From: Planctomycetaceae bacterium
GTDB taxonomy: Bacteria; Planctomycetota; Planctomycetia; Planctomycetales; Planctomycetaceae
Direction of reading: 5' to 3'
DNA: 48,620 bases
Assembly: GCA_019636285.1 (NCBI GenBank)
Contig: JAHBXV010000045.1
Coordinates: 1 to 48,620 of the forward strand
Shown here: piece after piece, positions 7,825 through 39,722 of the stretch
Position numbering within the stretch: position 1 is the stretch's first letter
How the letters are laid out: each line of letters begins with the position of its first letter
Translations under genes and position numbers: made by a program
Notes under the pieces: generated by a model
Told to the model about the DNA's origin: nothing
The model's database searches: none
Seen by the model: only the letters and a program-made list of their open reading frames with translations

Positions 7825-8808
7825 CTATTCCATCGAGGGGGGATCGCTAGCCTCTGCTGGATCGGGGCTGGATTCGCCAACCGTTTCCACGGGCGGGAGA
7901 ATAAAGATTTCTCCAAAATCGGCGGGTTGCTCCGCGCGGAACTGGTGGTGCCGCAGAAGTTCGAGAATCGCCAGGAAGATGCCGATGATCTTGCTGCGCA
8001 GATTCGTGCCAGCGAAGAACTCGCTGAACGGCACGCGACCCGCCTCGCGGACTCGTTCGCCGATCCGTTCGACATAAATGGCGATCGGTGTTTCGTCGTA
8101 GCGAATCGCCGAGGTTTCCTCGACGATCTTCTTTTGAAGAACGCGCGAGAGCGCGCTCACCAAATCCCACAACTCGACTTCCTTGATCGGGTCGGCGGCA
8201 TGATCGCGGCCCTGAGTCGGGCGCTCGTCGGCGAGTCGCGGGAAGCGGTTCTGCCATTCGGCGGCCTGGGCATCGAGTGCCGTGGCGGCGTCTTTGTAGC
8301 GCTTGTATTCGAGCAGTTGCTGGATCAAGTCGGATCGAGGGTCGTCATCGACGATCTCCTCGACGGCCTCTTCCTCGTTTCGGGGGAGCACCAGCCGACT
8401 CTTGATCTCCACCAGCGCGCTCGCCATGACCACGAAATCGCCAATCAGGTCGAGATCGAGAAATTCGATGACCTGGAGATAGTCGAGGAATTGGCGGGTG
8501 ATTGTGGAAATCGGCAAGTCGACCAGATCGACTTCATTGCGCCGCACCAGGTACAGCAGCAGGTCGAGCGGGCCGGTGAAGGCATCGAGTTCCACGCGGT
8601 ATGCGGTGGTCACGGATTTCTTGGCCTCGCCATGTTCTTCAGACTTCCCATTTTCGTGATTGCGGGGCGCGCGCTTCTGGCGGTGCGGAGGCCCTCCCGA
8701 ATCGTTATCGTCGGATCGGACGACCGAGGTTGAGGTTGGTGGCGGCTCGGACAGTTTTGGCCTGGGAGCTTCGAGCGTGAACGACGTCGGGTTCGCAATC
8801 TGGAACAT
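7825..8808 (-). CDS. scpA: Segregation and condensation protein A
   Basis: ScpA is the kleisin subunit that bridges SMC heads with ScpB. The core runs from about residue 69, where YRVELDAFTGPLDLLLYLVR marks the SMC-binding N-terminus, through VVMASALVEIKSRLVLP to the winged C-terminal region ending near IFLAILELLRHHQ. The first 65 residues are a low-complexity polar extension not usual in the family. A GTG at 8613 would give a protein starting just before the core, so the true start is uncertain. The annotated start at 8808 overlaps the start of the divergent gene at 8807 in a shared CATG. scpB is not adjacent. Confidence 0.9.
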   Translation of the reverse strand: MFQIANPTSFTLEAPRPKLSEPPPTSTSVVRSDDNDSGGPPHRQKRAPRNHENGKSEEHGEAKKSVTTAYRVELDAFTGPLDLLLYLVRRNEVDLVDLPISTITRQFLDYLQVIEFLDLDLIGDFVVMASALVEIKSRLVLPRNEEEAVEEIVDDDPRSDLIQQLLEYKRYKDAATALDAQAAEWQNRFPRLADERPTQGRDHAADPIKEVELWDLVSALSRVLQKKIVEETSAIRYDETPIAIYVERIGERVREAGRVPFSEFFAGTNLRSKIIGIFLAILELLRHHQFRAEQPADFGEIFILPPVETVGESSPDPAEASDPPSME

Positions 8809-9172
8809 GCTGGAATCGTCAATCGCGGTAATAGCCGCATTGATGGCCTTGGTCGGGCCTTGGCTCCCGTTGATCGCCTGGGTGGCTTTCTGGGGGCTTT
8901 GCGTCGACTGGCGGAAATTCCAGCCCGTGCTTCAAAGCGGGGGATGGATTGCTCTGGTGGGGGTTGCCTTCCTTGCCGCCGCGATTTGGAGTCTCCTGGT
9001 GCCGACGGACAGCGGGCGACATCTCTTGTTCGGGCTTTCCGTCAGCAACCTGACCGGCAAAGTCGTCTATACGACTGGACTCGTTTGCCTCATCCATGGC
9101 TGCGGCGCGGCTCAATTCGCCTTGCGCGGCGATGTTGGCGAAGCGACTCAGGAAGCTGCGTCCGGGGGCTGA
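8807..9172 (+). CDS. Small hypothetical membrane protein
   Basis: A 121-residue protein with three hydrophobic segments at about residues 5-30, 43-62 and 75-100, and a polar Ala/Glu-rich tail. I do not recognise the family. The WVAFWGLCVDWRKF segment between the first two helices is the most distinctive part. Its start overlaps the upstream start of scpA on the other strand. Its stop lies 5 bp before an inverted-repeat element shared with the end of tsaE. No clear ribosome site precedes it. Confidence 0.65.
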   Translation: MLESSIAVIAALMALVGPWLPLIAWVAFWGLCVDWRKFQPVLQSGGWIALVGVAFLAAAIWSLLVPTDSGRHLLFGLSVSNLTGKVVYTTGLVCLIHGCGAAQFALRGDVGEATQEAASGG

Positions 9173-9177
9173 GAACC

Positions 9178-9255
9178 CCTAACACAACCGGTTGTGCCCG
9201 TCGGAAACCCGCGGAAACTCAGGCAAACACGTCATTGCACAGAGGTTGTGTTAGG
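9178..9255. repeat. Palindromic repeat element, copy 1
   Basis: The element is bounded by a perfect 12-bp inverted repeat, CCTAACACAACC at 9178-9189 and GGTTGTGTTAGG at 9244-9255. The left arm also forms a perfect 14-bp palindrome CACAACCGGTTGTG (9183-9196) with the next bases, so two foldings compete. A second copy lies reversed at 18605-18686; by hand 69 of 82 aligned positions agree without gaps. This copy sits between convergent genes and contains the tsaE stop codon. Confidence 0.85.
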
Positions 9256-9754
9256 ATTTCTGAGTTTCGGCCCAGCGACGGATTAGTTGTTCGAGCACGA
9301 CGATCGCGCGCGGTCCGTTGGCCGTGGCGGTCAGGGCGCGGCTGTGTTCGCTGACCGGTTGCAACGTGATCTGCAAGCGCCGGCGGGGGAGCTCGTTCTC
9401 GACGAGATTGGCCCATTCGATAATCGTGATCGCGTCGGACGAGAAGAGTTCGTCGAGTCCCAGATCGACGAACTCGGCCGGAGATCGCAAGCGGTAGGCA
9501 TCGCAGTGTCGCAGGTGTTTGCGACCGCGGTACTCGTGGATCAGTCCGAATGTCGGAGAGTGAACCTCGTCGGCCGGAACTTCCAAGGCTTCGGCCAAGG
9601 CGCGAACGAGACGGGTTTTGCCCGCCCCCAGGTCTCCCACGAGTCCGAGGACATCGCCCGGTTCGAGGAGTTCAGCCAGCAGCCTTCCCAGCCGGACCGT
9701 CTCCGCCTCGCTGGAAAGTGTCGCGCTCCATGGGGTGGTCTGCGACGAAGTCAT
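9251..9754 (-). CDS. tsaE: tRNA threonylcarbamoyladenosine biosynthesis ATPase TsaE
   Basis: TsaE drives the TsaB-TsaD-TsaE cycle that makes t6A37 in ANN-decoding tRNAs. The 167-residue protein is slightly longer than usual. It carries Walker A GDLGAGKT (residues 40-47), the switch-like SPTFGLIHEY segment, HCDAYRL and the IIEWA strand typical of the family. The stop codon lies inside the palindromic element at 9178-9255, which converges with the membrane-protein gene at 8807. tsaB and tsaD are not in the window. Confidence 0.93.
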   Translation of the reverse strand: MTSSQTTPWSATLSSEAETVRLGRLLAELLEPGDVLGLVGDLGAGKTRLVRALAEALEVPADEVHSPTFGLIHEYRGRKHLRHCDAYRLRSPAEFVDLGLDELFSSDAITIIEWANLVENELPRRRLQITLQPVSEHSRALTATANGPRAIVVLEQLIRRWAETQKS

Positions 9755-17980: not shown

Positions 17981-18054
17981 TGGCACCGATGTTCACCCGC
18001 TGACTGACATCGGATTCCGCAGTGAATTCAGCGGTGGCGAGAAAAACGGACCTC

Positions 18055-18585
18055 ATGATGACCGTTGAGGAAGTTTACCAATACTTGTGCGAGTTGCTGG
18101 GCGAAGATCGCATCCTCGGTCTGGAAGCCGGTGCGCGCGATCCGTTTGTCATCGTGGCACCCGAGTCGATCGCCGTTGTCGCGGATGTGCTGAAGAACGA
18201 CTCGCGTCTCTCATTCGATCACCTGTGCGATCTGTGCGGAGTTGACTGGCGCGCTGTTCCCGAGCGAAAGGTGGCCTGCCAGGAACCGCGAGTCGAAGTC
18301 GTTTATCAGCTCTACAGCTTTACCCATCGGCATCGGCTGACGGTGAAGGCGAAACTGCCGCGCTGGCGCGACGAGACGGAAAAAACGCTCCCGGAAATCC
18401 CGACGGTGTCCGGAGTCTGGGCGATAGCCGACTGGCACGAGCGGGAAGCGTACGACCTCGTGGGAATCCGTTTCATTGGGCACCCCGATCTGCGGCGGAT
18501 CCTCTGCGCGGAAGACTGGGTGGGTCATCCATTGCGGAAAGATTACGAGTTTCCGCTGGAATATCATGGTATTCGCGGTCGCTGA
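18055..18585 (+). CDS. nuoC: NADH-quinone oxidoreductase subunit C
   Basis: The 30-kDa-type subunit of the complex I peripheral arm. Diagnostic residues are DHLCDLCGVDW, HRLTVKAKLP, ADWHEREAYDLVGIRF, GHPDLRRIL and HPLRKDYEFPLEY. ATG 18055 gives 176 residues, close to stand-alone NuoC; a GTG at 18022 would add 11. It follows nuoA by about 75 bp. A palindromic repeat element fills the spacer to nuoD. Confidence 0.93.
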   Translation: MMTVEEVYQYLCELLGEDRILGLEAGARDPFVIVAPESIAVVADVLKNDSRLSFDHLCDLCGVDWRAVPERKVACQEPRVEVVYQLYSFTHRHRLTVKAKLPRWRDETEKTLPEIPTVSGVWAIADWHEREAYDLVGIRFIGHPDLRRILCAEDWVGHPLRKDYEFPLEYHGIRGR

Positions 18586-18604
18586 GCACGACCTTTCGCG
18601 ACAT

Positions 18605-18688
18605 AGAGATTCTCACACAACCTCTGTGCAATGAAGTGTTTGCCCGGTGATCCGCAGGTTTCTGACAGGCACAACCGGTTGTGTTGGG
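18605..18688. repeat. Palindromic repeat element, copy 2 (reversed)
   Basis: The reverse complement of copy 1 at 9178-9255, with 69 of 82 aligned positions identical by hand. ACACAACC (18615-18622) and GGTTGTGT (18677-18684) form the terminal inverted repeat, and CACAACCGGTTGTG (18670-18683) is the internal palindrome. It lies inside the nuoC-nuoD spacer and would be part of their mRNA. Confidence 0.85.
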
Positions 18689-18714
18689 TTTCTTAATCCC
18701 GAGGACTGCTGCTG

Positions 18715-19953
18715 ATGTCTCTGGCCCTGGAAGACCCCCGCGTTATCGAGTTCGACGTCAGGACGGACGAGATGCTCGTCAACATGGGGCCGCAGCATCC
18801 CAGTACGCACGGCGTGCTCAGGCTGTTACTGCGCACTGACGGGGAAATTGTTCACGAAGTCGTTCCCCACATCGGCTACCTGCACCGCTGTGCCGAAAAG
18901 ATTGGCGAAAACCTGTCGCCGCCGCAGTGGGTTCCGTATACCGACCGGATGGATTACCTCTCCGGGATGAACATGAATCTCGGTTTCTCGCTGGCGGTCG
19001 AGAAGCTGATCGGCATGGAAGTTCCCGAAAAAGCGATGACGCTTCGGGTGATTGCCGCCGAGATGGGGCGGATTGCCGGCCACCTGGTGGGAATGGGCGC
19101 GTACGGCCTCGATCTGGGGACATTCAGCCCATTCCTGTGGGCGTTCCGCGAGCGGGAGATCATTCTCGATCTGTTCGAGGAACTCTGCGGCGCTCGGCTG
19201 ACATACAGCTATGTCACGATTGGCGGCGTGACGCACGACCTGCCGCAAACGATTCAGATTCCACCGGGGCTTGCGCAACTGACCGGTCGACCGTTTGACC
19301 AGCGATTGAGTTGGATCGAGGCCTGCCGCTTGTTTCTCGACTGGATGATTCCCCGCATCCGCGAGTACCACACGCTCCTGACGACGAACCAGATCTTCGT
19401 GAAGCGAACAGCCGGTTTGGGTGTGCTGACGCGCGAGATGGCAATCAGTCACGGTTGCAGCGGGCCGGTTCTTCGCGGAAGCGGGGTCGACTTCGATCTG
19501 CGTCGCGATGGCGAGCAGATTTACACGCGCATGTACTCCGGCTACCAGTATGAGATCCCCTGCCCTCCGTTCTCTGATGCTCCACCGGAGGTCGTGCTGG
19601 GCGACAACTGGTGCCGGTTCTATGTTCGCATGAACGAGGTGGCCCAGTCGCTCCGACTGGTTTCACAGGCGCTCGACCGGTATCCCACGGCGGAAGGCGA
19701 GTATCGTTTGCCGTTTCGCATTGGCCAGAAACTCCCCCAGGACGAGTGCTACCTGGAAACGGAATGCCCGCGCGGAGCCATGGGTTTCTACATCGTGGGG
19801 GACGGTTCGCCAATTCCAGTGCGGGCGCGGGCCAAGAGCAGCAGCTTCTGCAATCTTTCGGTCACCGGCCCCCTCTGCCGCGGCATTCTCCTGGCCGACA
19901 TTCCCGCGATTGTCGGATCGCTGGATGTGGTGATGGGTGAAATCGATCGCTGA
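18715..19953 (+). CDS. nuoD: NADH-quinone oxidoreductase subunit D
   Basis: The 49-kDa-type complex I subunit that with NuoB forms the quinone-binding pocket. The 412-residue protein has the usual length and motifs: MGPQHPSTHGVLRLLL with the quinone-site His, HIGYLHRCAEKIGENL, RIAGHLVGMGAYGLDLG, and the C-terminal DIPAIVGSLDVVMGEIDR. GAGGA lies about 10 bases before the start. It is the last nuo gene in the window. It converges on a methyltransferase gene with only 19 bp between and no visible terminator. Confidence 0.96.
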   Translation: MSLALEDPRVIEFDVRTDEMLVNMGPQHPSTHGVLRLLLRTDGEIVHEVVPHIGYLHRCAEKIGENLSPPQWVPYTDRMDYLSGMNMNLGFSLAVEKLIGMEVPEKAMTLRVIAAEMGRIAGHLVGMGAYGLDLGTFSPFLWAFREREIILDLFEELCGARLTYSYVTIGGVTHDLPQTIQIPPGLAQLTGRPFDQRLSWIEACRLFLDWMIPRIREYHTLLTTNQIFVKRTAGLGVLTREMAISHGCSGPVLRGSGVDFDLRRDGEQIYTRMYSGYQYEIPCPPFSDAPPEVVLGDNWCRFYVRMNEVAQSLRLVSQALDRYPTAEGEYRLPFRIGQKLPQDECYLETECPRGAMGFYIVGDGSPIPVRARAKSSSFCNLSVTGPLCRGILLADIPAIVGSLDVVMGEIDR

Positions 19954-29356: not shown

Positions 29357-29430
29357 GTGTGCACACTGGCTCTGCCAGTGTGCCTTTAGGAGATCCGCCA
29401 TAACAAGATGCACTGGCAGAGCCAGTGGCA
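29357..29430. repeat. Pair of inverted hairpin repeats
   Basis: The first unit, GCACACTGGC-TCT-GCCAGTGTGC (29361-29383), is a perfect 10-bp stem with a 3-base loop. The second, CACTGGC-AGA-GCCAGTG (29411-29427), has a 7-bp stem and is the inverted copy of the first with its flank GTGTGC. Lying between convergent genes, they could act as a two-way terminator or be a small dispersed repeat. Confidence 0.8.
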
Positions 29431-39539: not shown

Positions 39540-39605
39540 CGTGGCGAATGAGCGCGACGTTTTGACGAGTGTGTTGCCGAGGGAGTCGCAGGCGACCTCC
39601 CCCCA

Positions 39606-39722
39606 CACCCGAGAACCAAGTGCTTAGGGCTGCTTCAGTTACGACCTGACCCGGTTCGCACGGCCCCGCCGCGAAGAGAGGCCGCCTGTGACCCCCAGCG
39701 GGAGCCCGAACAGCCAAGACCT
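39606..39722 (-). ncRNA. ffs: Signal recognition particle RNA (4.5S type)
   Basis: On the minus strand the conserved domain IV is at 39652-39627. The 5' arm GGGUCAGG and 3' arm AGCAGCCC form the asymmetric Ffh-binding loop, capped by UCG-UAAC-UGA. The tetraloop UAAC fits the URRC class rather than the GGAA of E. coli. GUGC (39661-39658) and GCAC (39623-39620) extend the stem below. The ends are estimated; a short bacterial type without an Alu domain is likely. The RNA joins Ffh to target membrane and secreted proteins. Confidence 0.85.

Follow-up and report, generated by a model that had tools for sequence, protein, structure and literature searches.

The 88-bp repeat that occurs twice in the window (the whole stretch of 48,620 nucleotides of Planctomycetaceae DNA analysed here) belongs to an IS5-type MITE family, ordinary in kind and unnamed in the libraries and literature searched. 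From its sequence we consider it very probable (about 0.92) that the element is a non-autonomous MITE that depends for its mobility on an IS5-family transposase (NF033580 type) acting on its ends in trans. In the proposed mechanism, the two 17-bp ends would be bound in trans by such a transposase (NF033580; DUF4096 plus DDE_Tnp_1), which would mobilise the MITE and insert it into a TNA triplet that is duplicated on both sides.

The first-pass annotation had described the pair as a miniature mobile repeat or an RNA processing/termination element that fits no named family. The mobile part of this interpretation is borne out by the ends, the TNA duplications, the large number of scattered copies, paralogous sites that are empty, one nested insertion and complete IS5 elements, in genomes of the same class, whose ends are nearly the same. 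The RNA part finds no support. The assignment accounts for at least 108 unexplained hairpins in the genome of the window and for similar ones in relatives, which are now linked to a definite transposase type. Such hairpins should not be taken for RNA genes or terminators without evidence.

The element and its copies

The observation from which the analysis started was real but incomplete. Both copies are present, a genome search with copy 1 recovers copy 2 (86% over 77 bases, E 2.7e-19), and both contain the palindrome CACAACCGGTTGTG; the identity given at first, 69 of 82 positions, comes close to the 67 identical columns of 85 in a global alignment of the same intervals. The interval 9178-9255 proved too short, and an alignment of 30 copies extends the element to 88 bp (Table 1). 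The element is thus short and without coding capacity, and the consensus of the 100 best of 108 copies ends in 17-bp terminal inverted repeats. Copy 2 lies within the spacer between the ORFs 18022-18585 and 18715-19953, putatively named nuoC and nuoD in the first-pass annotation. The insertion site of copy 1 coincides with a stop codon, and the duplicated TGA still terminates the plus-strand ORF; the stop and final codons of the opposing ORF 9251-9754 are supplied by the end of copy 1 (9251-9263).

Table 1. Positions, in window coordinates, of the two MITE copies and their parts
Feature	Positions	Strand	Remark
MITE copy 1, 88 bp	9173-9260	+	model match 9169-9263, 111 bits
Left target-site duplication TGA	9170-9172	+	doubles as stop codon of ORF 8660-9172 (+)
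Right target-site duplication TGA	9261-9263	+	
Left terminal inverted repeat GAACCCCTAACACAACC	9173-9189	+	
Right terminal inverted repeat GAAATCCTAACACAACC, minus-strand reading	9244-9260	-	
Conserved core, left part CCGGTTGTG	9188-9196	+	
Conserved core, right part CAGAGG	9240-9245	+	
MITE copy 2, 87 bp, CCCTAAC short of one T	18606-18692	-	
Copy 2, 5' flanking triplet TAA	18693-18695	-	hand-placed, missing T allowed for
Copy 2, 3' flanking triplet TAT, differs from TAA	18603-18605	-	

That the element occurs twice holds within the window only. A covariance model (R1) built from 30 aligned genome copies was searched against the genome of the window (6.37 Mb, 113 contigs; G000) and gave 128 matches at E up to 1, which, with opposite-strand echoes and three weak partial matches left out, correspond to 112 separate places. 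Four of these (on contigs C57, C63, C2 and C38) represent a second MITE family, and the other 108 are copies of the present one, family 1, all with E 1.9e-5 or better and a few of them truncated. The figure is to be read as at least 108, with 150 of 2342 first-look candidates scored. These copies are dispersed over 52 contigs in both orientations (53 plus, 55 minus) and include four head-to-tail dimers. The genome is not limited to two copies, relatives carry the element as well and no named family matches it; the opposite outcomes, which the first-pass annotation had set against its own idea, all failed to occur. Once the element is taken out, the site lies within an open frame of 200 codons or more in 78 of 110 copies (the 112 places, family 2 included, minus two with short flanks); for randomly chosen points of these loci the figure is 351 of 394. 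These counts agree with an intergenic bias, the measure being crude in a GC-rich genome.

The second MITE family has the arms CCGTCAAAACCC/GGGTTTTGACGG and is found in this genome at C57:3231, C63:8860, C2:75772 and C38:74407.

Target duplications, empty sites and a nested insertion

Identical triplets flank 29 of the 108 copies of the genome, a number reached in none of 20000 permutations, and the remaining 79 lack them. TNA stands on either side of 32 copies, and in 25 of these the two triplets agree (again 0 of 20000 permutations), comprising TAA/TAA in 13 cases, TTA/TTA in 8, and TGA/TGA and TCA/TCA in 2 each. Control triplets taken 3, 4, 6 and 9 bases farther outward match in 0, 2, 2 and 3 of 108. 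Since the triplets are repeated directly and not inverted, and TTA never stands opposite TAA in these copies, they are read as target duplications lying outside the inverted repeat. In g30, a genus of the same family, identical triplets flank 20 of 61 distinct elements (67 before reduction, with one place lacking a right arm removed), a value that 21 of 20000 permutations reach; TNA stands on either side of 32 g30 copies, and in 14 of these the two triplets differ, TTA facing TAA in five cases.

Empty sites were sought among paralogous repeat copies, tandem-pair members being excluded from the comparison. Three copies (r0, r11 and r25) are clearly inserted in another repeat (CCACTGGC...GCCAGTG), whose unoccupied copies lack both the element and the second duplication and show a single TTA/TAA; for r25 this is true of one of the two best matches. 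The comparison was partial for r15 and r58 and gave no clear reading for r10, r13 and r95. A nested insertion is found on contig C63 (r109), where a family-1 copy is interrupted by a family-2 MITE; the flanks, once joined, can be aligned with other copies of family 1 at 82% and 89%. The nested family-2 copy carries CTTG on both edges.

A second repeat family, at 29364-29427 of the window and also, for example, at C2:26400-26530 and C2:75088, consists of paired palindromes CACTGGCTCTGCCAGTG/CACTGGCAGAGCCAGTG that lie 30 bp apart. By our reading it is REPIN-like, and it serves as a target of MITE insertion.

IS5 elements with similar ends

Two scans for the ends led to full-length insertion sequences. 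The first, with an 18-base left-end pattern, covered a named genome collection, from which the genome of the window and very near ones may be absent, and returned 63 stretches, of which 56 come from a trio of Planctomycetaceae MAGs (CAMAVF01, JAKFVC01, JAQGHS01) and 7 from elsewhere. Six of these seven have, as judged by eye, no right arm within 110 bases, and the seventh (L223, from a Hyphomonadaceae MAG) forms the left terminus of an insertion sequence that has the ends GAGCGTCTAACAAAACC and TTA/TTA flanks and contains two frames with matches to DUF4096, to DDE_Tnp_1 and to NF033580, the IS5 model of NCBI. In the second scan, the pattern TNAGAGNNNCTRACAMAACC was matched in 33 of 397 genomes of the class, the reversed control pattern giving single matches in 8 table rows. 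Thirty of its loci were examined. In 12, one of them from the genome of the window (L329), a partner end lies at MITE distance (66-130 bp); two (L309, L321) are of insertion-sequence size with a DUF4096 motif; two more (L313, L316) are of that size with matching TTA/TTA or TAA/TAA flanks and no DUF4096 motif seen; and 14 fell in no class.

The cleanest example, L321, is an insertion sequence of 918 bp flanked by TAA/TAA, with the ends GAGACCCTAACACAACC / GAGACTCTAACACAACT and a single transposase ORF of 268 aa that scores 256.5 bits with NF033580 (cut-off 110). A search with its protein found L334, in a genome (G201) selected because it already carried such ends; the transposase is 52-54% identical and the ends GAAGCTCTAACAAAACC / GAACCTCTAACAAAACC were located by an inverted-repeat scan without the pattern. 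The two flanks of L334 read TAA and TTA, those of L309 TTC and TTA. Because L321, L309 and L223 were located by searching for the ends, their end match exists by construction; the informative point, and the test, is that matches of an end search proved to be IS5 termini. Compared with the MITE consensus, the left end of L321 agrees with either end at 15 of 17 positions and its right end at 13-15, and the ends of L334 agree at 13-15 of 17; for IS5 elements with other ends (C59 of the genome of the window, L258, L338 and L340) the values are 6-10 of 17. The ends of the MITE are thus nearly those of autonomous IS5 elements (L321, L334). At the left end of L223 and the right ends of L309 and L321, a partial inverse of the terminal repeat comes after the repeat itself (AACCGGTTGTG, AACCAGGTTTGG, AACTCGGTTTTGG), an arrangement also seen at the MITE left end.

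The MITE shares with insertion sequences of the NF033580 (transpos_IS5_3) type the 17-bp ends and the TNA target. Unlike L321 and L334, whose ends are almost those of the MITE and enclose an open transposase frame, it is 88 bp long, gene-less and not self-mobile. We take insertion sequences of the NF033580 type to be the IS1031 and IS427 groups, and a TNA target is the label of the IS1031 group. Recognition of three nucleotides by ISLxx6 is described in PMC2516522 as a trait common to the IS1031 group of IS5.

A transposase tree of 11 rows, in which several forks are open and two rows are less than half filled (L340 gave no usable match), supports the pairing of the transposases with TTTCAAAACC ends (C59 of the genome of the window, and G018), the pairing of L223 with L309, and a 7-row group formed by the CTAACAMAACC transposases, a fragment from the MITE-rich genome G115 and the TTTCAAAACC pair. 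Taken alone, the CTAACAMAACC transposases form no supported clade.

In the genome of the window, no insertion sequence with family-1 ends (GARNYYCTAACACAACC) was found by a search that would miss diverged ends, and in an assembly of 113 contigs this absence of a cognate element is unproven. The exact end pattern occurs at 60 places, 59 of them in element copies and one apparently inside a coding sequence. Among the three PF13340 places of this genome, C59 has other ends and none were found at C25 and C37, nor at the DDE-only place C61. In G115, among 100 of 153 end matches listed, paired ends span 75-77 bp and neither unpaired ends at insertion-sequence spacing nor an insertion sequence with family-1 ends occur; the closest transposase piece in G115 lies at the edge of a contig and has no visible right end. 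The IS5-type transposases of G000, G029, G114 and G115 were rejected as partners, their ends being different or not found. The driver of the copies in the genome of the window may have been lost, may have diverged or may be unassembled. We infer that such a transposase moved these copies, be it by cut-and-paste or copy-out, and that the cognate insertion sequence was lost or missed.

The IS5-type element at C59:23544-24301 (L246:1059-1950) has the ends TAGAGGCGGTTTCAAAAC(C), which resemble those of the MITEs of G018, G023, G175 and G176, and its transposase is divided between two frames that overlap, a layout known from elements that use programmed frameshifting.

Relatives, the conserved core and alternative readings

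Of the 170 family genomes searched, 4 contain the left-end pattern YTNACAMAACCGGTTGYG, namely that of the window (60 places) and three of the four g30 species covered (7, 8 and 78 places). The g30 arms read CAAAACC/GGTTTTG, a change present on both sides. With a wider model (R2) and an E limit of 0.001, matches extend to 34 of the 170 genomes and 17 of 58 genera, eight of the 34 having a single match. Elements were read from 13 of these 34 genomes, and their arms differ by lineage: TATCCGAAAACC in G110, ATCCTAAAACCC in G126, TTTCAAAACCC in G018, G023, G175 and G176, GTCCCAAAATCC in G116 and CCGACAAAACC in G123, G119 having the same type as the window. While the terminal arms differ, the inner motif CCGGTTG...CAGAGG is mostly retained across the lineages read. 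Both of its parts are present in 35 of 39 relatives fetched by place; in the genome of the window, exact CCGGTTG is found in 82 and exact CAGAGG in 71 of 108 copies. Seven MITEs of the class with similar ends and a length of 66-68 bp have CCGGTTG in no case and CAGAGG in two (L305, L317). Because CCGGTTG is absent from these short MITEs, the ends are apparently sufficient for mobility, with the left core as a mark of the present lineage.

This conserved asymmetric core is the one puzzling feature of the family. Conceivably, one MITE backbone (about 88-95 bp in total, with the core CCGGTTG...CAGAGG) spread through the family while its arms were repeatedly switched to match different IS5 transposases (CTAACAMAACC, TTTCAAAACCC, TATCCGAAAACC, ATCCTAAAACCC and others), the core being kept for a structural job. 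We regard this as an unlikely conjecture, with a matching insertion-sequence end shown for just two arm types, and our odds on it were lowered slightly because the tree gives the CTAACAMAACC transposases no supported clade of their own. If true, it would be a clean case of a passenger transposon swapping drivers.

The core common to lineages with different arms also bears on the idea that the repeat is maintained as structured RNA or DNA because of a function (a transcript 3' end, an RNase site or regulation), with mobility secondary, which we consider improbable. Arm pairing is retained in the lineages read, and in g30, 60 elements of equal length hold 47 double compensated cells of 1800, as compared with a shuffle mean of 9.3 and a maximum of 20; the inverted ends of transposons co-vary anyway, however, and kinship of copies inflates such counts. 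For the inner stem (26 sequences, 10 lineages), pairing within a lineage exceeds pairing between lineages only slightly (846 of 20000 permutations), a weak signal, and MITEs with similar ends exist that lack the left core motif, as in the seven short ones above. Copy 1 is predicted to fold far better than its shuffles (z -5.3 plus, -3.4 minus), and copy 2, folded over 18604-18688, no better than its own (predicted z -0.6, -0.8). Two exclusive folds, as first proposed, can be drawn on paper, but the predicted minimum-energy fold of both copies, on both strands, includes arm-to-arm pairing. The exact left palindrome occurs in 65 of the 108 copies and is broken in relatives with a different left arm (e.g. 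CAAAACCGGTTGTG), where arm-to-arm pairing is kept. Neither copy has a terminator-like site. Rfam gave no element match above the gathering score in the whole window, and nothing overlapping an element in the loci L001, L061, L062 and L147 down to E 10.

The one Rfam match in the window is the bacterial small SRP RNA at 39588-39686 (-), with 42 bits against a gathering score of 40. In L061 (G029), another long hairpin-like stretch near the MITE, at 442-565, has sub-threshold microRNA matches in Rfam and is perhaps one more foldback element.

Even less probable is a REP/REPIN-like element or a TIR element that would owe its mobility to RAYT or TIRYT enzymes, which are Y1 (HUH) tyrosine transposases. 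A variable, matched 3-bp target duplication, as found here, is unexpected of HUH single-strand transposition. The copies resemble such repeats in being palindromic, of high copy number and, in four cases, head-to-tail dimers, and PMC3733652 reports high-copy palindromes in planctomycetes too, with GTAG repeats in the PVC superphylum and many tyrosine transposase genes with flanking repeats in R. baltica. The same paper gives REPs a length of 20-40 bp (PMC3733652), whereas the present element measures 88 bp, carries 17-bp ends near those of IS5 and is flanked by matched TNA duplications. In the 30-copy alignment, the 88-bp element does not fit the pattern of a 20-40 bp palindrome with a GTAG or CGTC tag that marks REP/RAYT repeats.

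An attC-like recombination site of an integron, suggested by the imperfect palindrome with its asymmetric inner part, is contradicted by the target duplication and by dispersal in both orientations, and we give it practically no credence. attC sites require GTT, and the outer bases here alternate between GTTAG and GTCAG.

The IS5-type MITE reading also finds parallels beyond the phylum. The transposons of the PIF/Harbinger group are related to IS5. The eukaryotic MITEs derived from them likewise have a 3-bp target duplication (PMC2213677). As outlined in PMC10969869, prokaryotic MITEs such as Correia/NEMIS, ERIC and QMITE are short and hairpin-forming, with terminal inverted and direct repeats, as the present element is; an intergenic bias is also shared, for this element as a tentative feature based on the crude count above. 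It differs from them in sequence, in host phylum and in a mostly conserved asymmetric core across lineages with different ends.
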